Source of the DNA: Gemmatimonadaceae bacterium
GTDB lineage: Bacteria; Gemmatimonadota; Gemmatimonadetes; Gemmatimonadales; Gemmatimonadaceae
Reading direction: 5' to 3'
Assembly: GCA_036003045.1 (NCBI GenBank)
Contig: DASYSS010000007.1
Location: forward strand, 1 to 64,000
DNA length: 64,000 bases
Position 1 is the stretch's first letter, and the number at the start of each line of letters is the position of its first letter. The notes beneath the pieces were generated by a model, which saw only the letters and a program-made list of their open reading frames with translations, was not told the DNA's origin and did not search any database. Below, one piece after another: positions 13,819-23,208 of the stretch. The position numbers were made by a program, and so were the translations under genes.

Positions 13819-16800
13819 ATGAGCCTGACGAGTCTGTTTGTTCGACGGCCGGTCATGACGACACTGCTCATGATCGGCATCCTCGTGTTCGGGATCGTTT
13901 CGTACCGGAAGCTGCCGGTGAGCGACCTCCCGACGGTCGACTATCCGACGATCAGCGTCGACGCCAACCTGCCTGGCGCGAGCCCCGAAACGATGGCCGC
14001 TACCGTGGCGACGCCGCTGGAAAAGGCGTTCTCGGCCATCGCCGGGATTGACGAGATCACATCGAGTAGCAGTCTAGGTAGGACGAACATCACGCTGCAG
14101 TTCGCCCTCGACCGAAGCGTCGAGGCCGCGGCGCAGGACGTGAACGCGGCCATCGGGAAGACGCTGCCGTTTCTTCCGTCGACGATCCTGCCGCCCAACT
14201 ACCACAAGCAGAATCCGTCGGCGGCGCCGATCCTGAACATCGCGCTCACGTCCAACGTGCTGCCGATGACGGACGTGGACGAGTACGCGGAGACGACGAT
14301 CGCGCAGCGGCTCTCGATGATCGAGGGTGTGGCCCAGGTGAACGTCTGGGGCTCGGCGAAATACGCCGTGCGCGTGCAGGTGGATCCCGACCAATTGGCG
14401 AGCCGCAACGTCGGCGTATCGCAGGTCGCCAACGCGATCCGCAACAACAACGTGATGCTGCCGACGGGCGTGCTCTACGGAAAGACGCACACCTACACCG
14501 TGCAGGCGACGGGGCAGATGAATGACGCCGACGAGTTCCGGCGCCTCATCGTGTCCTACAAGAACGGCGCGCCGGTGCGACTCGGCGACGTCGCCAACGT
14601 TCTCGACGACATCCAGAACAACAAGTCCGCCAGCTGGTACGAGAACGAGCGCTCGATCAACCTGATGGTGCAGCGGCAGCCGGGGACGAACACCGTCGAA
14701 GTGGCGAGCCGGGTGAAGGAAGCGCTGGGCGACATCGAGCGCGGTCTTCCGCCGACGCTCAAGGTCCACGTGCAGTACGACCGCTCGATCTCCATCCAGA
14801 ACGCCGTCCGCGACGTGAAGTTCTCCCTGCTCGTCGCGCTCGTGCTCGTGGTCGCGGTCATCTTCCTATTCCTGCGCAGCGCGGTCGCGACGCTGATCCC
14901 CAGCCTGACGCTCCCGCTGGCGATCATCGGCACGTTCTCGGTGATGTACGCGCTCGACTTCAGCGTCGACAACCTGTCGCTGATGGCGCTCACGCTCGCC
15001 GTCGGCTTCATCGTGGACGACGCGATCGTGATGCTCGAGAACATCATCCGGCACATCGAGATGGGAAAGCAGCCGATGCAAGCGGCGCTCGACGGCGCGC
15101 ACGAAGTCGGCTTCACCGTGTTGTCGATGTGTCTCTCGCTGTCGGCGGTGTTTTTGCCGCTGATGTTCATGGGCGGCATCATCGGACGGCTGTTCCGAGA
15201 GTTCGCGATCACGATCGCGGTGGCGATTCTCGTCTCCGGACTCGTCGCGCTCACGTTGACGCCCATGCTGTGCAGCCGCCTGCTGCGCGCGCGCGACGAC
15301 GAGCCGCGTCACGGAAGCCTCTTCAATCTGAGCGAGCGCGGCTTCGAGGCGCTGCGCCGCGGCTACGAGCGGAGCCTCGAGTGGGTGATGCGGCATCGGC
15401 CGCTCACGCTCGTGTTCTCGGCGCTCATTCTCGCGCTCACGGGCGTGCTCTGGACGGTGATCCCGAAAGGGTTGTTCCCGCCGGACGACACCGGATCGCT
15501 CAACGCGACCGCCGAGGCGGCCCAGGGCACGACGTTCACGGAAATGCTGCGCTTCGGCAAGCTCGCGAGCACGAAGTTGGCCACCGACTCGAACGTCGCA
15601 TCGTACACGATGAACGTGGGGAGCATGGGGCCGTCGAACCAGGTGCAGTTCAACATCACGCTCAAGCCTGCGGGCACGCGGCCGGCCGCGGATTCGATGG
15701 TGCACGAGCTGACGAAGGTGATGTCCGGGATCCCTGGGCTTCAGATCTTCGTCACGAACCCGCCGTCGATCCGCATCGGCGGCCGCGGCACCAAGACGCT
15801 CTATCAGTACACGCTGCGCGGCCCCGACATCACGCAGCTCTATTCCGAAGGCAACAAGCTGATGGCGCGGTTGCAGGAGATGCCGACGTTGAGCGGCGTG
15901 ACGTCCGATCTCTTGAATCGCAGCCCGATTCTTCGCATCCACATCGACCGCGAGCGCGCGGCGGCTCTTGGAGTCACGCCGACGGGAATCGAGCAGGCGC
16001 TCGCCAACGCGTACAACCAGCAGCAGGTCTCGACGATCTTCATGCCGACGAATCAGTACCTCGTCGTCATGGAGACGGTGCCGAGCGCGCAGCTCGACGC
16101 GAGCGCTTTGGAGCATTTCTTCGTCCCGGCGCCGAACGGAAAGCAGGTTCAGCTCACCGACGTGTCGTGGCTCGAGCAGACGACCGGCCCGCTCAGCGTG
16201 GCGCACTCGGGACAGATGGCGTCGATGACCATCTCGTTCAACCTGGCGCCGGGTGTGTCGCTGGGCGCCGCGACCGACGAGGTGAGTCGTGTCGCGCGTC
16301 AAACGTTGCCGGCGACGATCACAGGGGGCTTCGCCGGGACGGCGGCCGCGTTCCAGGATTCGCAGCAGGGGATGGGACTGCTGCTCCTGATCACGATCTT
16401 CATCATCTACATCATTCTCGGGATCCTGTACGAGAGCTTCATCCATCCCGTGACGATTTTGACGGGACTGCCGTTCGCGGCGTTCGGAGCGCTGCTCGCG
16501 CTCTGGCTCGCGCACGTCGAATTGGGTGTGTACGGATATGTCGGCATCATCATGCTGATCGGCATCGTCGAAAAGAACGCGATCATGATGATCGACTTCG
16601 CGCTCGAGCGTCAGCGGACGGAGCGAATTCCGCCGGCCAAGGCGATCGTCGAGGCGGCGAGCGTTCGCTTCCGTCCGATCATGATGACGACGGTGTCGGC
16701 GATCGTCGGCACGCTCCCGATCGCGATCGGTGTCGGCACCAGCGCCGCCTCGCGTCGCCCGCTCGGCGTCGCGGTGGTGGGCGGGTTGGCATTCTCCCAG

Positions 16801-16932
16801 ATCGTGACGCTCTACGTCACGCCCGTGTTCTATTCGTATTTCGATGAGATTCAGGCGTGGATCGGTCGGCGAGCAAGGCGGGCGGTTGGAGCGGTCGGTA
16901 CGGCGGAGCCCGTGCCGGCGGCTGGAGACTAA
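13819..16932 (+). CDS. RND efflux permease 1 (MdtB/MuxB-like)
   Basis: A 1037-residue proton-driven drug exporter of the HAE-RND family with the usual two repeats of six membrane helices and two large periplasmic loops. The starting motif FVRRPVMTTLLMIGILVFG, the TM4 pair in VGFIVDDAIVMLENI, and the TM10 lysine in IGIVEKNAIMMIDFA are intact proton-relay residues. The gene begins 8 bases after the adaptor gene. A second permease of identical length follows after a repeat element. This arrangement (A, B, C) matches mdtABC/muxABC, in which B and C form a heterotrimer. Confidence 0.9.
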   Translation: MSLTSLFVRRPVMTTLLMIGILVFGIVSYRKLPVSDLPTVDYPTISVDANLPGASPETMAATVATPLEKAFSAIAGIDEITSSSSLGRTNITLQFALDRSVEAAAQDVNAAIGKTLPFLPSTILPPNYHKQNPSAAPILNIALTSNVLPMTDVDEYAETTIAQRLSMIEGVAQVNVWGSAKYAVRVQVDPDQLASRNVGVSQVANAIRNNNVMLPTGVLYGKTHTYTVQATGQMNDADEFRRLIVSYKNGAPVRLGDVANVLDDIQNNKSASWYENERSINLMVQRQPGTNTVEVASRVKEALGDIERGLPPTLKVHVQYDRSISIQNAVRDVKFSLLVALVLVVAVIFLFLRSAVATLIPSLTLPLAIIGTFSVMYALDFSVDNLSLMALTLAVGFIVDDAIVMLENIIRHIEMGKQPMQAALDGAHEVGFTVLSMCLSLSAVFLPLMFMGGIIGRLFREFAITIAVAILVSGLVALTLTPMLCSRLLRARDDEPRHGSLFNLSERGFEALRRGYERSLEWVMRHRPLTLVFSALILALTGVLWTVIPKGLFPPDDTGSLNATAEAAQGTTFTEMLRFGKLASTKLATDSNVASYTMNVGSMGPSNQVQFNITLKPAGTRPAADSMVHELTKVMSGIPGLQIFVTNPPSIRIGGRGTKTLYQYTLRGPDITQLYSEGNKLMARLQEMPTLSGVTSDLLNRSPILRIHIDRERAAALGVTPTGIEQALANAYNQQQVSTIFMPTNQYLVVMETVPSAQLDASALEHFFVPAPNGKQVQLTDVSWLEQTTGPLSVAHSGQMASMTISFNLAPGVSLGAATDEVSRVARQTLPATITGGFAGTAAAFQDSQQGMGLLLLITIFIIYIILGILYESFIHPVTILTGLPFAAFGALLALWLAHVELGVYGYVGIIMLIGIVEKNAIMMIDFALERQRTERIPPAKAIVEAASVRFRPIMMTTVSAIVGTLPIAIGVGTSAASRRPLGVAVVGGLAFSQIVTLYVTPVFYSYFDEIQAWIGRRARRAVGAVGTAEPVPAAGD

Positions 16933-16944
16933 CGAAGGACTACA

Positions 16945-17400
16945 ACGACAAGTACAACTGCAACGACCAACCGCAACGGCAACGACCAACCACAACCGCT
17001 CACCGCAGAGACGCAGAGGACGCAGAGGAACGCAGAGGAGTGCACATCTGGGCGGACCAGTCCGCAACGAGCTGGTTTGTTTGCGACAGCCGCTCGGGGG
17101 GGCTAGGGCGAGCGGAGTGGGGGTCCTCCACGCATAAGCATCCCGAGCGGCAGTCACCAAAACCCCCCGGCGTGGTGGCGAGGGCTGGCGGTCGCCGCGT
17201 GGAGGGCCCTCTGCGTTCCTCCGCGTCCTCTGCGTCTCTGCGGTGAGTCGTTGCAGTTGTTTTTTCAGTTGTTTTTTTAGTTGTTTTTTGTTGATCGTTG
17301 CCATTGGGGTCGTTGCTGTTTGGTCGTTGCTGTTTGGTCGTTGCTGTTTGGTCGTTGCTGTTTGGTCGTTGCAGTCGAGTCGTTGAGCAGTTGCTGTTGC
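16945..17400. repeat. Family B inverted-repeat element between the two RND permease genes
   Basis: The 495-base gap is filled by nested inverted arms. Inner arms: CTCACCGCAGAGACGCAGAG-type units at about 16998-17040 and their complement (TCCTCTGCGTCTCTGCGGTG) at about 17210-17248. Outer arms: GCAACGACCAACCGCAACGG-type units at about 16960-16995, complemented by GGTCGTTGCTGTTT, a 14-base unit repeated about four times at about 17311-17366. The roughly 170-base centre has no convincing gene. It must be read through if the adaptor and both permeases form one operon. Confidence 0.85.
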
Positions 17401-17427
17401 TGTGGACTTTTCCCTATCGAGTAGTCG

Positions 17428-20400
17428 ATGAATTTCACGACGTTGTTCATTAAACGGCCTGTCATGACGACCTTGGTCATGATCGGCATTCTGGTTTTCG
17501 GCATCGTCGCGTACCGGCAGCTTCCGGTGAGCGACCTGCCGAACGTCGATTTCCCCACGGTGACGGTCAGCGCGACGCTGCCGGGGACGAGCCCGCAGAC
17601 GATGGCGGCGACGGTCGCGACGCCGCTCGAGAAGCAGTTCTCGACGATCGCGGGCATCGACAACATGACGTCGACGTCGAGCCTCGGGCAGACGCAGATC
17701 GTCATCCAGTTCGCGCTCGACCGGAACATCGATGCGGCGGCGCAAGACGTTCAGGCGGCGATCGCGCAGACCATCCGCAGCTTACCGCAGGGTATCATCC
17801 CGCCGTCTTATCAGAAAACCAACCCGGCGGACGCGCCTATTCTCACCTTGGCGCTCACGTCGACCGAGGTGCCGCTCTCCACGCTCGACGAGTTCGGCGA
17901 GACTACGCTCGCTCAGCGGCTCTCGATGGTCGGCGGGGTCGCGCAGGTGCTGGTCTACGGCGCGCAGAAATACGCCGTGCGCCTCCAACTCGATCCCGGC
18001 CAGCTCGCGTCGCGCAGCATCGCGCTCGAGGACGTCGCCAACGCGGTCATCGCGCAAAACGTGAACATGCCGACCGGCGTGCTCTACGGGCCGCGGACGG
18101 CGCTCACGGTTCAGGCGACCGGGCAGCTCGAGAACGCCGACCAGTTCAAGGACGTGATCGTGGCGTATCGGAACGGCGCCCCGGTCCACCTCGAGGAAAT
18201 CGGTCGCATCACGGACGACGTGCAGAACAACAAGACGGCGAGCTGGTACAACGGCGACCGTTCGATCGTGCTGGCGATCCAGCGGCAGCCCGGCACCAAC
18301 ACCGTAGACGTCGCGAGCAAGGTCAAGGCGGCGCTGGGGCGATTGTCGGCCGAGATTCCGCCGGCCGTGCACGTCGACACGCTCTACGATCGCTCGGCGA
18401 CGATCAAAGCGTCGGTGGACGACGTCACGTTCACCCTCGAGCTCACGCTCGCGCTCGTCGTGCTCGTGATCTTCTTGTTCCTGCGGAACTGGTCGGCGAC
18501 GATCATTCCGAGTCTCGCCCTGCCGATGTCGATCATCGGCACGTTCTCGGTGATGTATCTGCTGCACTACAGCCTGGACAACCTGTCGCTGATGGCGCTG
18601 ACGCTCGCCGTGGGCTTCGTGGTCGACGACGCGATCGTGATGCTCGAGAACATCGTGCGGCATCTCGAGATGGGAAAAACGAAGATGCAGGCCGCCGTCG
18701 ACGGCGCGGCCGAGGTCGGGTTCACGATCTTGTCGATGACGTTCTCACTGGCCGCGGTCTTCATCCCCTTCCTGTTCATGGGCGGGATCATCGGCAAGTT
18801 GTTCCACGAGTTCGCCGTGACGATCGGCGTCGCGATCCTGGTATCGGGGTTCGTGTCGCTGACGCTGACGCCGATGCTGTCGAGCCGCTTCCTCAAGTCG
18901 GATCACGGCAAAGAGCACGGCCGCCTTTACCAGGCGACCGAGCGCTTCTACGACGCGTGGCTCGGCCTATACGAGCGCACGCTCGCGTGGGTCATGGCGC
19001 GGCGCCCGCTCACGCTCGCGTTCTCCGCGGTGATCCTCATCGCCACGGGCTATCTGTTCTGGTCGACGCCCAAGGGCCTGTTCCCGACCGACGACACGGG
19101 GCAGTTGCTTGCCACCACCGAGGCGGCGGAAGGCGTGTCGTTCGACGCGCTCGTCGAGCACCAGCAGGAAGTGGCGGCGGTCATCACGAAAGATCCGGAC
19201 GTACTGTCAGTCACGTCGTCGGTGGGCACAACCGCCGCGGCCAACCAGGGACAGCTGACGATCGATCTCAAGCCGATCACCGAGCGGAAGCGAAGCGCGG
19301 ATCAGATCGCGCGCGACCTCACGAAGGCAGTGGTCGGCGTTCCCGCGATCAGCGTTTTCATTCAAAACCCGCCGGCCATCTCGATCGGCGGCCTCGCGTC
19401 CAAGAGCCTGTACCAGTACACGCTGCAAAGCGGCGACATCAACAGCCTGAATACGGCGGCGCGCCAGATGGAGACGCGCATGCGGCAGTTGCCCGGACTC
19501 GTGGACGTCACGAGCGACCTGTTGATCGAGAATCCGCAGGTGACCGTCGACATCAACCGGGAACAGGCCGGCCAGCTCGGCGTCTCGGCGAGCGAGATCG
19601 AGAACACGCTGTACGACGCGTTCGGCCAGCGCCAGGTGTCCACCATCTACACGTCCACGAACGAGTACTGGGTCGTCATGGAGCTCCTCCCGGAGTTCCA
19701 ACAGGACGTGGACGCGCTGGGCAAGTTGTGGGTCCGATCGTCGCGGGGCCCGCTCGTTCCGCTCAGCACCGTGGCCGCCTTCCGCTACACCGTTGGACCG
19801 GTGACGGTGAACCACTCCGGCCAGCTTCCGTCGGTCACCGTGTCGTTCAATCTCGCCACAGGTACGTCGCTCGGTACCGCGCTCAAGGCGATCCAGCAAA
19901 CGGCGGCTGACGTGCTGCCGAACACCGTGGCGGCGAACTTCTCCGGCATCGCGCAGGCGTTCGTCACGACGCAGCAGGGACTCGTGCTGCTGATGCTGCT
20001 GGCGATCTTCGTGATTTACGTGATCCTCGGCGTGCTGTACGAGAGTTTTATCCATCCGATCACGATCCTCACGGGACTGCCTTTTGCGGCCTTTGGCGCG
20101 CTGGTCACGCTGATACTCTTCGGTCTCGATCTCGACATCTACGGATTCGTCGGCATCATCATGTTGATCGGGATCGTGGAAAAGAACGCGATCATGATGA
20201 TCGACTTCGCGATCGAGGCGCAGCGCGACAAAAAGCGCACGCCGTCGGAGGCGATCCTCGAAGCGGCGAGCGTGCGTTTTCGCCCGATCATGATGACGAC
20301 GATGGCGGCGCTCATGGGCGCGGTGCCGATCGCGGTCGGCTGGGGCGCCGGCGCGTCGACGCGACGGCCGCTCGGCGTGGCGGTGGTGGGCGGGCTGGCG

Positions 20401-20541
20401 TTCTCGCAGCTGGTGACGCTGTACGTGACGCCGGTGTTCTACACGTACCTCGACGAGTGGCAGCAGTGGTTCTCGAGGCGGAAAGAGCGGAGCGCCGTGA
20501 CGGTGGTGGGGCCAGCGCCGGAGCCGGCTGCGGGCGACTGA
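17428..20541 (+). CDS. RND efflux permease 2 (MdtC/MuxC-like)
   Basis: A 1037-residue HAE-RND transporter, same length as permease 1 and clearly its paralogue. It has the opening motif FIKRPVMTTLVMIGILVFG, the TM4 acidic pair in VGFVVDDAIVMLENIVRH, and TM10 GIVEKNAIMMIDFA. By analogy with MdtBC it probably assembles with permease 1 and the adaptor; no outer-membrane channel gene is directly attached. The repeat element upstream separates it from permease 1 by 495 bases. It needs read-through or its own promoter within that element. Confidence 0.9.
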   Translation: MNFTTLFIKRPVMTTLVMIGILVFGIVAYRQLPVSDLPNVDFPTVTVSATLPGTSPQTMAATVATPLEKQFSTIAGIDNMTSTSSLGQTQIVIQFALDRNIDAAAQDVQAAIAQTIRSLPQGIIPPSYQKTNPADAPILTLALTSTEVPLSTLDEFGETTLAQRLSMVGGVAQVLVYGAQKYAVRLQLDPGQLASRSIALEDVANAVIAQNVNMPTGVLYGPRTALTVQATGQLENADQFKDVIVAYRNGAPVHLEEIGRITDDVQNNKTASWYNGDRSIVLAIQRQPGTNTVDVASKVKAALGRLSAEIPPAVHVDTLYDRSATIKASVDDVTFTLELTLALVVLVIFLFLRNWSATIIPSLALPMSIIGTFSVMYLLHYSLDNLSLMALTLAVGFVVDDAIVMLENIVRHLEMGKTKMQAAVDGAAEVGFTILSMTFSLAAVFIPFLFMGGIIGKLFHEFAVTIGVAILVSGFVSLTLTPMLSSRFLKSDHGKEHGRLYQATERFYDAWLGLYERTLAWVMARRPLTLAFSAVILIATGYLFWSTPKGLFPTDDTGQLLATTEAAEGVSFDALVEHQQEVAAVITKDPDVLSVTSSVGTTAAANQGQLTIDLKPITERKRSADQIARDLTKAVVGVPAISVFIQNPPAISIGGLASKSLYQYTLQSGDINSLNTAARQMETRMRQLPGLVDVTSDLLIENPQVTVDINREQAGQLGVSASEIENTLYDAFGQRQVSTIYTSTNEYWVVMELLPEFQQDVDALGKLWVRSSRGPLVPLSTVAAFRYTVGPVTVNHSGQLPSVTVSFNLATGTSLGTALKAIQQTAADVLPNTVAANFSGIAQAFVTTQQGLVLLMLLAIFVIYVILGVLYESFIHPITILTGLPFAAFGALVTLILFGLDLDIYGFVGIIMLIGIVEKNAIMMIDFAIEAQRDKKRTPSEAILEAASVRFRPIMMTTMAALMGAVPIAVGWGAGASTRRPLGVAVVGGLAFSQLVTLYVTPVFYTYLDEWQQWFSRRKERSAVTVVGPAPEPAAGD

Positions 20542-20820: not shown

Positions 20821-23208
20821 ATGGCCACTCGTCGCCGTCGCCCCCCGAAGCGCGCCTCACGCCGCAGTCCGACTGCGCGCGTCCGTGCCGAGCCGCTCAG
20901 CTCGGCTTCGGCGCTCCTCGACACGGAAAAAGACTTCAGCATGCTCTCGCTTCGCGACCTGGTCGCGGCGCGGGACGCGTACCATCTCCACCTGATGGAG
21001 AAGCGGCATGTCGTCGCGACGGCGGTGGGCCGCTACCTGATTCGCAGCGAGGAGAGGTGGCCGCAATACCTCGGCGACGCAGCGGAGCACGATAGAAAGG
21101 TCGCACGACAGCCCAAGAAGGAGCCGCGGACGCTATACAACTCCGAGGTGCGCCCGTACTCGTGGCCGTGCGTGCTCGTGTTCGTGGACAAGTGGTTGAA
21201 TCTCGAGGACGTGCAGTCGGGGAAGGTCGACCCGGCCGATCTCGTGCCTCGTTCGCTCGACATGCCCGACGGCTCGCGCGTGCCGGTGTGCGTCGTCTAC
21301 GCTCAACCGGTGGACGCGCCGCCGTACGCGCCGGTTTCGCCGCGCTTTCCTCGACAGTTCATCGGCGGCGGGTATCCGATCATCGCGCGCGTGCAGCAGG
21401 AAGAACATGTCGCGTCGGTCGGCTGCATGGTGACCGACGGCCACGACGTGTACGCACTCACCAACCGGCATGTCGCGGGGAAACCGGGTGAAGAGCTGTT
21501 CTCGAAGATCGGCGGAGAAGCGGTACGGGTGGGAGTGTCCTCGGACAAGCAGTTGACTCGAAAGAAATTCTCCGAGGTGTATCCGGATTTTCCCGACCGG
21601 CACATGTACGTGAATCTCGACGTCGGTCTGGTGCGGGTGGACGACCTGACGAAGTGGACGGCGCAGATCTACGGGATCGGCGAGATGGGGAAGTTGGCCG
21701 ACCTGTCCGCCGACAACATTTCGTTGCGGCTGATCGACGCGCACGTGAGGGCGTTTGGCGCAGCGTCGGGGCCGATGCGCGGCAAGATCAAGGCGCTGTT
21801 CTATCGCTACAAGTCCGTCGGCGGAATGGAGTACTGCTCCGATTTCCTGATTGGACCGCGAGAGGGAAAGGTCTTGCCGACCCGGCCGGGCGACTCGGGC
21901 ACCGTGTGGCTGCTCGAGGACGGGAAGAAGGCTCCGCGCCCGCTCGCGCTGCAGTGGGGCGGGCACACGTTCGTCGGCGACGGCACCAAGATCGTGGCGC
22001 CGTACGCGTTGGCCACATGCCTCGCGACGGTGTGCAACGAGCTCGAGGTCGACGTCGTGCGGGACTGGAACGCGGGCGTGTTGGACTATTGGGGGGCCGT
22101 CGGCCATTACACGATCGCCGCGCTCGCCATCGACCGCATCGACGGAACGAAGTACCCGAAGCTCAAGAAGCTGATGCAGGCGAACCTGCCGCGCATCACC
22201 TTTGCGGCCGCCTCGATCACGGCCAAGAGCACGACGGGGTTGTCAAAGCACGATTTCGTCGCGCTCGCGGACGTCCCGGATCTCGTCTGGAAGAAGGGGC
22301 ACAGCCCGAAGAATCCGCCGCCGAACCCGACGCTCGCCTGGAAGCGCGCGCACTCGAATCGCGGACCGAACGAGCATCCCAATCATTTCGCCGACATGGA
22401 CGCCCCACGCGCCGGCGGAAACTTGCTGGACTTGTGCTCGAAGAGCCTCGCGAAGAACACGGACGTCGCTGTGTGGCGGAAGTACTACACCGACGTAAAG
22501 GACAAGAGTCGCGGCCTGCTTCCGTTCCGCGTACAGCAGTTCTACGAGGGCATGGTGAAGGACCTCAAGCAAGCGCACCCGGACTTCGCGCGATTCGTCT
22601 GCGCGGCGGGAATCGTGTCGCACTATGTCGGCGACGCGTGCCAGCCGCTGCACGTCTCGAGCTGGTTCAACGGCGACCCCACCACCCTCGTCGACAACCC
22701 CAACAAGGGAAAGCCGCACGAACCCGACAAGATTCCTGCCGGGACCGGGGTACACGGCGCGTACGAAGACGACATGATCAACTTTCACATCGGCGACATC
22801 ACGCCGGTGGTGCAAGCTGATACGACGCCGCTGCGTCCCAATTTCAAGGGCGGCAAGCACGCCGCGATGGCGTGCACGCAACTCATCCTCGACACGTTCG
22901 ACCTGATCAAGCCGAAGGACATCGTCGCCAAGTACATCACGCTGCAGCAGCAGGGAACGACCGGAAAAGCGGCCGCCGACGAGCTTTGGAAGACGTTCGG
23001 AACGCCGACCGAAGGCGTCATCGCGGCTGGAGTGCGCGCACTGGCGAGCGTGTGGCAGAGCGCGTGGGCCGAGGCCAAGGCGGAAGCAAAAGCGCCGGCG
23101 TCGCCGAGCGCGTTCGACGAGCCGGTGCTGGAGGCGTTCTTCGTCGAGCCGGAAACGTTCTATCCGTCGAAGACGATCGATCACGTATGCGAGGTGATTG
23201 ACTGCTGA
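20821..23208 (+). CDS. Trypsin-like protease fused to S1/P1-type nuclease
   Basis: A 795-residue protein. It begins with a very basic segment (MATRRRRPPKRASRR) and no obvious signal peptide. Residues about 185-400 resemble a chymotrypsin-fold serine protease, with candidate triad H217 (ALTNRHVAG), D267 (VNLDVGLV) and S359 (RPGDSGTV). From residue 424 an S1/P1 nuclease begins. WGAVGHYTIAALAI matches the W1...H6 start of nuclease P1, and further zinc ligands fit D484/D487, H522 (HFADMDAP), H601, D605 and H611 (SHYVGDACQPLH), H645 and E649 (HGAYE). In P1 the Trp amino group binds zinc, so activity would require cleavage before W424. Direct repeats flank the gene and the 3' copy contains its stop. 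Targets and localisation are unknown. Confidence 0.72.
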   Translation: MATRRRRPPKRASRRSPTARVRAEPLSSASALLDTEKDFSMLSLRDLVAARDAYHLHLMEKRHVVATAVGRYLIRSEERWPQYLGDAAEHDRKVARQPKKEPRTLYNSEVRPYSWPCVLVFVDKWLNLEDVQSGKVDPADLVPRSLDMPDGSRVPVCVVYAQPVDAPPYAPVSPRFPRQFIGGGYPIIARVQQEEHVASVGCMVTDGHDVYALTNRHVAGKPGEELFSKIGGEAVRVGVSSDKQLTRKKFSEVYPDFPDRHMYVNLDVGLVRVDDLTKWTAQIYGIGEMGKLADLSADNISLRLIDAHVRAFGAASGPMRGKIKALFYRYKSVGGMEYCSDFLIGPREGKVLPTRPGDSGTVWLLEDGKKAPRPLALQWGGHTFVGDGTKIVAPYALATCLATVCNELEVDVVRDWNAGVLDYWGAVGHYTIAALAIDRIDGTKYPKLKKLMQANLPRITFAAASITAKSTTGLSKHDFVALADVPDLVWKKGHSPKNPPPNPTLAWKRAHSNRGPNEHPNHFADMDAPRAGGNLLDLCSKSLAKNTDVAVWRKYYTDVKDKSRGLLPFRVQQFYEGMVKDLKQAHPDFARFVCAAGIVSHYVGDACQPLHVSSWFNGDPTTLVDNPNKGKPHEPDKIPAGTGVHGAYEDDMINFHIGDITPVVQADTTPLRPNFKGGKHAAMACTQLILDTFDLIKPKDIVAKYITLQQQGTTGKAAADELWKTFGTPTEGVIAAGVRALASVWQSAWAEAKAEAKAPASPSAFDEPVLEAFFVEPETFYPSKTIDHVCEVIDC

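Follow-up and report, generated by a model that had tools for sequence, protein, structure and literature searches.

In S1 nuclease, zinc is bound by the main chain of the N-terminal Trp (PMC5201275). The same is seen in SmNuc1, where Trp27 is the N-terminus of the mature enzyme and the remaining zinc ligands are His32, Asp71, His88, His141, Asp145, His151, His175 and Asp179 (PMC11705217). The window analysed here is a stretch of 64,000 nucleotides from a Gemmatimonadaceae bacterium (GenBank assembly GCA_036003045.1, contig DASYSS010000007.1), and contains a gene in which a domain apparently of this type follows a protease in the same chain, so that the corresponding Trp (W424) is in the middle of the polypeptide. 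The locus therefore raises the question of how such a domain could complete its zinc site, and whether the adjoining protease is what frees the Trp.

The features of the gene are listed in Table 1. As a first-pass annotation of this DNA had claimed, a single reading frame joins the protease to the nuclease-type domain, giving a protein of 795 amino acids. Conservation among related fusions starts near residue 37, and so the true start codon may differ from the one given. A Pfam search of the protein matched Nal1_C (PF25819), S1-P1_nuclease (PF02265) and Zn_dep_PLPC (PF00882), while a search of NCBIfam gave no match. Two consecutive genes for RND-type transporter permeases, which are ordinary, are located just upstream (window positions 13819–20541).

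Table 1. Features of the fusion gene, with positions in the window and the basis of each assignment.
Feature	Position	Strand	Basis
Protease–nuclease fusion gene	20821..23208	+	single open frame, 795 codons
NAL1-type unit, residues 37–412: N-terminal domain and predicted chymotrypsin-fold (clan PA) serine protease	20929..22056	+	PF25819, NAL1 chains, model
Catalytic His217	21469..21471	+	invariant in 13/13 fusions and 16/16 Nal1-type proteases
Catalytic Asp267	21619..21621	+	invariant in 13/13 fusions and 16/16 Nal1-type proteases
Catalytic Ser359 (GDSG)	21895..21897	+	invariant in 13/13 fusions and 16/16 Nal1-type proteases
Linker, residues 413–423, ending D422-Y423	22057..22089	+	length the same in 12 fusions, central residues variable, low model confidence
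Predicted S1/P1-nuclease/zinc-PLC superfamily domain, residues 424–795	22090..23205	+	PF02265 and PF00882, profile matches
Trp424, expected to become the N-terminus and to bind Zn3 once the chain is cut	22090..22092	+	invariant
Zinc ligand His429 (WGAVGH)	22105..22107	+	conservation, profile
Asp484 and Asp487 (ADVPD), one of them corresponding to the zinc ligand Asp45 of P1	22270..22281	+	both invariant
Zinc ligand His522 and HFAD motif	22384..22395	+	F523 and D525 correspond to the Phe and Asp in the nucleoside site of S1 nuclease
Zinc-ligand motif H601-x3-D605-x5-H611	22621..22653	+	invariant, profile
Zinc-ligand motif H645-x3-E649 (Glu for Asp)	22753..22767	+	invariant

The first-pass annotation had proposed a chymotrypsin-fold protease with H217, D267 and S359 as catalytic residues, to be checked by a search for clan PA domains and by structure prediction of residues 180–410. 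The Nal1_C match is well above the Pfam cut-off (E 2.6e-13, 50.2 bits against 26.1, residues 191–386), and in a phmmer search of the PDB the only significant matches were crystal chains of rice NARROW LEAF 1 (NAL1; E 2e-9, residues 116–384). AlphaFold2 was used to predict the structure of residues 37–445, using a 16-row alignment composed of the fusion, two relatives from bacteria and 13 proteases of the Nal1 type encoded on viral contigs, the last at 17–22% identity. The model (pLDDT 78, pTM 0.81) has a clan PA fold and matches rice NAL1 (7y77) with Z 35.9 (VIA) and 3.1 Å over 331 residues; the next structural group, the alpha-lytic and Streptomyces griseus proteases, is at Z about 18. Given this structural match, and a triad that is invariant in all 16 rows, the N-terminal part is confirmed, at the level of sequence and model, as a clan PA serine protease of the NAL1 type. 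The span first given for it was too short, since the unit takes in the NAL1-type N-terminal domain as well: the fold is common to the whole of the N-terminal 375 residues, with the triad at the same positions, although NAL1 is a plant protein without a nuclease. NAL1 has been reported to be an active serine protease, and the rice and maize proteins cleave TOPLESS-type corepressors (PMC12915138, PMC11647526).

Stand-alone proteases of the Nal1 type are also present in viral contigs, where 14 were found (L085–L098, of which L086 and L091 have an additional C-terminal domain). The viral contigs searched contained neither the fusion nor relatives of the nuclease, and a search of phage records found none.

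The assignment of the C-terminal domain is more distant. The S1-P1 match has an E-value of 3.7e-5 over residues 424–613, but its 24.1 bits are below the Pfam cut-off of 29.5; the zinc-PLC match (E 0.0015) is likewise below (19 bits against 26.8). Related proteins show the same behaviour, being below the S1-P1 cut-off, and the best of them for Zn_dep_PLPC has 25.3 bits. All nine zinc-ligand positions are nevertheless present with S1/P1 spacing (W424, H429, D484/D487, H522, H601, D605, H611, H645 and E649), and the spacings are as in SmNuc1 (W+5=H, H+4=D+6=H, H+4=acid), except that the last ligand is Glu and not Asp. Within the ADVPD motif it is D487 that aligns with the invariant Asp of the stand-alone enzymes. 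A profile made from four fusions was compared with the PDB, where it matched plant endonuclease 2 with E 0.009 and had a weak match to SmNuc1 (E 0.64); it aligns WG-x-x-GH with residue 1 of the mature enzymes, in a stretch which is not significant alone. An AlphaFold2 model of the full-length protein, based on three sequences, predicted helices, but was discarded because its pLDDT was 34. It is concluded that by its sequence the domain is a distant member of the S1/P1-nuclease/zinc-PLC superfamily, and that its activity is likely to be that of a nuclease rather than a phospholipase. The earlier description of an S1/P1 nuclease thus holds for the ligand positions, with a family match that is more remote than the description implied.

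The joint between the two domains is the place where a cut would have to occur. W424 had been singled out as an internal Trp in WGAVGH, and this is borne out across the family: H217, D267, S359, W424, G428 and H429 are kept in 13/13 aligned fusions, and the 12 fusions whose sequence extends over the other zinc ligands retain every one of them. The spacing between the protease and the Trp is fixed, and there are no insertions or deletions in residues 393–442 in 12 sequences. Constant length was considered as proof of a precise cut and rejected as weak on its own, because gapless stretches of 20 residues are common (38% of windows in the fusion alignment). In the same 12 sequences, positions −7 to −3 before the Trp are variable, while position −2 is Glu or Asp in 11 (Gln in the other) and position −1 is Tyr in 10 and Thr in two. 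The linker has pLDDT 42–47, in comparison to the confident NAL1-type part of the same model, and such low predicted confidence would fit an exposed site.

No leader or signal peptide is visible by eye in the fusion protein, in agreement with the first-pass annotation, whereas stand-alone relatives of both halves have leader-like N-termini and look, from their sequences, as if they are secreted. In the phylum of the source bacterium, 18 stand-alone relatives of the nuclease type have W-G-x-x-G-H directly after the leader-like stretch, and the stand-alone Nal1-type proteases end where the linker of the fusion starts. This suggests that the protease of the fusion occupies the place usually taken by a leader.

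The architecture is not a matter of chance, as confirmed by 15 further copies, some intact and others partial or frame-shifted, that are carried by other genomes and by plasmids. Copies in one chain, full or partial, are present in the genus and family of the source bacterium, in one Acidobacteriota MAG and one Planctomycetota MAG and further genomes of their classes, and on plasmids of Sphingobium, Ensifer, Neorhizobium and Sinorhizobium. The fusion is rare (about 4/299 and 3/297 genomes in two classes), and its spread across phyla is patchy. In a phylogenetic tree the fusion in the window is separated with strong support from that of its own genus-mate, and its nearest rows are from other phyla, which implies either horizontal spread or an old duplication. 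Distances between the protease parts and between the nuclease parts correlate across the fusions (r 0.83, Mantel p 0.0002), showing in their sequences that the two halves have been inherited jointly; and given that the triad is invariant in 13/13 and the zinc set in 12/12, both activities appear to be under selection together.

Several copies are irregular. One genome (G976; L045 and L047) has two divergent copies, which the tree places in separate clades. Frame shifts split the copies from Neorhizobium and Sinorhizobium (L035:7983-10279 and L036:7992-10342), which are either pseudogenes or the result of sequencing errors. Three matches in planctomycete-class genomes (L049, L050, L051) were considered as split-gene forms, and rejected as such: they are decayed or masked 3′ pieces of the fusion gene, which suggests repeated loss.

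The first-pass annotation had suggested a self-activating zymogen, possibly a toxin or defence effector. This is supported in part, in that those of its elements which are accessible to sequence and structure all agree with it. On balance, we think it probable that the protein is a one-chain pro-nuclease zymogen, armed by its own NAL1-type protease cutting before W424, in cis or in trans. The fusion would be made in the cytoplasm with W424 behind the protease, where its amino group would not be free to bind Zn3; the tri-zinc site would thus be incomplete and the uncut nuclease inactive. Some signal would then activate or assemble the protease, which would cut the [E/D][Y/T]|W joint of its own chain or of a neighbour's. 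Freed as an N-terminus, W424 would complete the zinc cluster and an active S1/P1-type nuclease would be released, to degrade nucleic acid and most likely to stop the spread of phage or plasmid by killing or halting the cell. What we infer here comprises the site and agent of the cleavage, the inactivity before it, the specificity of the nuclease, the trigger and the biological role. A precedent is a member of the same superfamily, the PC-PLC of Listeria, which is inactive as a pro-form and loses its activity when as little as one residue precedes W1 (PMC10576769), and by analogy the uncut fusion should also be inactive. PC-PLC is a secreted phospholipase with a 26-residue propeptide that is removed by a separate protease, Mpl, whereas the fusion carries a protease within the chain, which would be the obvious cutter of the joint.

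The Mpl example can also be read in another way, namely that the fusion is a zymogen cut by some other protease, with the NAL1-type domain acting on other targets or having a purely regulatory role, much as rice and maize NAL1 cut proteins other than themselves. We regard this as quite unlikely, in view of the fact that every relative found has the two domains in a single chain, that the domains are co-evolving, and that no neighbouring protease is conserved in 14 fusion neighbourhoods. A second reading dispenses with the cut: the domain would work with W424 internal, with the acidic residue at −2, or else the backbone, standing in for the amine, and the protease would serve some other purpose, such as the cleavage of a protein of the host or of a phage. 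The −2 residue is acidic often enough (11/12) to be a ligand, and HET-C type domains are predicted to have this fold and active site. The effect of one extra residue on Listeria PC-PLC speaks against this, and so does the invariance of the Trp, which is expected of an N-terminal ligand but would not be needed if a carboxylate had replaced the amine. We therefore consider it rather unlikely.

The remaining alternative concerns the product and leaves the activation logic unchanged: the C-terminal domain could act on the cell membrane, damaging it as a zinc-dependent phospholipase C. Zn_dep_PLPC does match the protein, and for one relative (P0005) it is the better of the two families (E 1.7e-5, against 6.7e-4 for S1-P1); the Glu as last zinc ligand is also in its favour. 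For the protein in the window, by contrast, S1-P1 is the better Pfam match, the spacing of 5 in W-G-x-x-G-H and the HFxD motif fit the S1/P1 enzymes, and the profile matches in the PDB are, though weak, to S1/P1 enzymes only. A phospholipase is thus unlikely.

The first-pass annotation knew of no described system of this kind. In the literature searched, we too found no pairing of NAL1 and P1-type domains and no activation by a new N-terminus, but the general idea is not new. Protease-activated pro-nucleases are established in Hachiman and AVAST phage defence. The systems of Tuck et al. (Science 2025, PMC12799240), at Hachiman, AVAST, Lamassu, DRT and canu loci, resemble the fusion in combining a trypsin-like or caspase protease with a nuclease that is inactive until cut. 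In these systems the nuclease is of the MBL fold, is encoded by a separate gene and is unblocked when two gating loops are cut, and the protease carries a fused sensor. The fusion is one chain with a predicted S1/P1-type fold and a predicted activation through the creation of a new N-terminus, with no sensor gene seen, and Pfam gave no match to an MBL family in it. Trypsin–NucA fusions are predicted conflict systems, and their "System 3" (Kaur et al., eLife 2020, PMC7159879) is similar in that a trypsin-like peptidase and a nuclease, sometimes in one polypeptide, are proposed to be linked by proteolytic activation; however, the nuclease there is NucA/Endonuclease_NS, which has no requirement for an N-terminal Trp. 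Pfam found this domain in two other proteins (P0008 and P0009) but not in the protein from the window. The secreted enzymes P1, S1 and SmNuc1 have the W-x4-H, H-x3-D-x5-H and H-x3-acid ligands in common with the fusion, but lose a leader on export; in the fusion it is a cytoplasmic-looking protease that precedes the Trp, and the resemblance in sequence to these enzymes is remote.

Among 14 fusion neighbourhoods there is no conserved partner or sensor gene, which could mean that the NAL1-type domain or its assembly is itself the switch. Other cross-matches between the neighbourhoods were dismissed as mirror ORFs, pieces of the same gene, or general regulators or enzymes, and most of the neighbourhoods are not recognisable as defence islands. 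The PADLOC model PDLC03017 ("trypsin-like", without further description) spans the whole protein with E 6.7e-40, its halves giving 2.9e-30 and 1.4e-8, indicating that relatives are already listed as a candidate defence component. In one genome (G587) a Trypsin_2 and Endonuclease_NS fusion (P0009; L056:2874-4871, − strand) is located 268 bp downstream of the NAL1–P1 fusion (L056:5139-7307, − strand), and a Streptomyces canus plasmid (L048:7575-9452) encodes a protein in which a related, Nal1-like protease is joined to an endonuclease of the NucA type. Plasmids of Rhizobium and Tsukamurella carry near full-length relatives of this protein. On the Sphingobium plasmid, the fusion is followed by a CYTH-domain gene (L033:10415-10951), near ParDE, dGTPase and Tn7-like transposition genes.

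More tentatively, and with appreciably less confidence than in the zymogen itself, the fusion may be a widespread one-gene immune effector, in which the NAL1-type protease senses invasion and cleaves itself to make a new N-terminus that is a zinc ligand, without a partner protein. If the zymogen reading is correct, this would be a compact protease-armed nuclease, a single chain holding the sensor or switch, the activating protease and the toxin, and it would be activated by the creation of a metal ligand (the new N-terminal amine) and not by the unblocking of loops. The prediction is a sharp one, involving a single cut site and a single residue. A bacterial relative of NAL1 would gain a testable native substrate in the form of its own joint, and protease-activated immunity would come to include the S1/P1-PLC superfamily.
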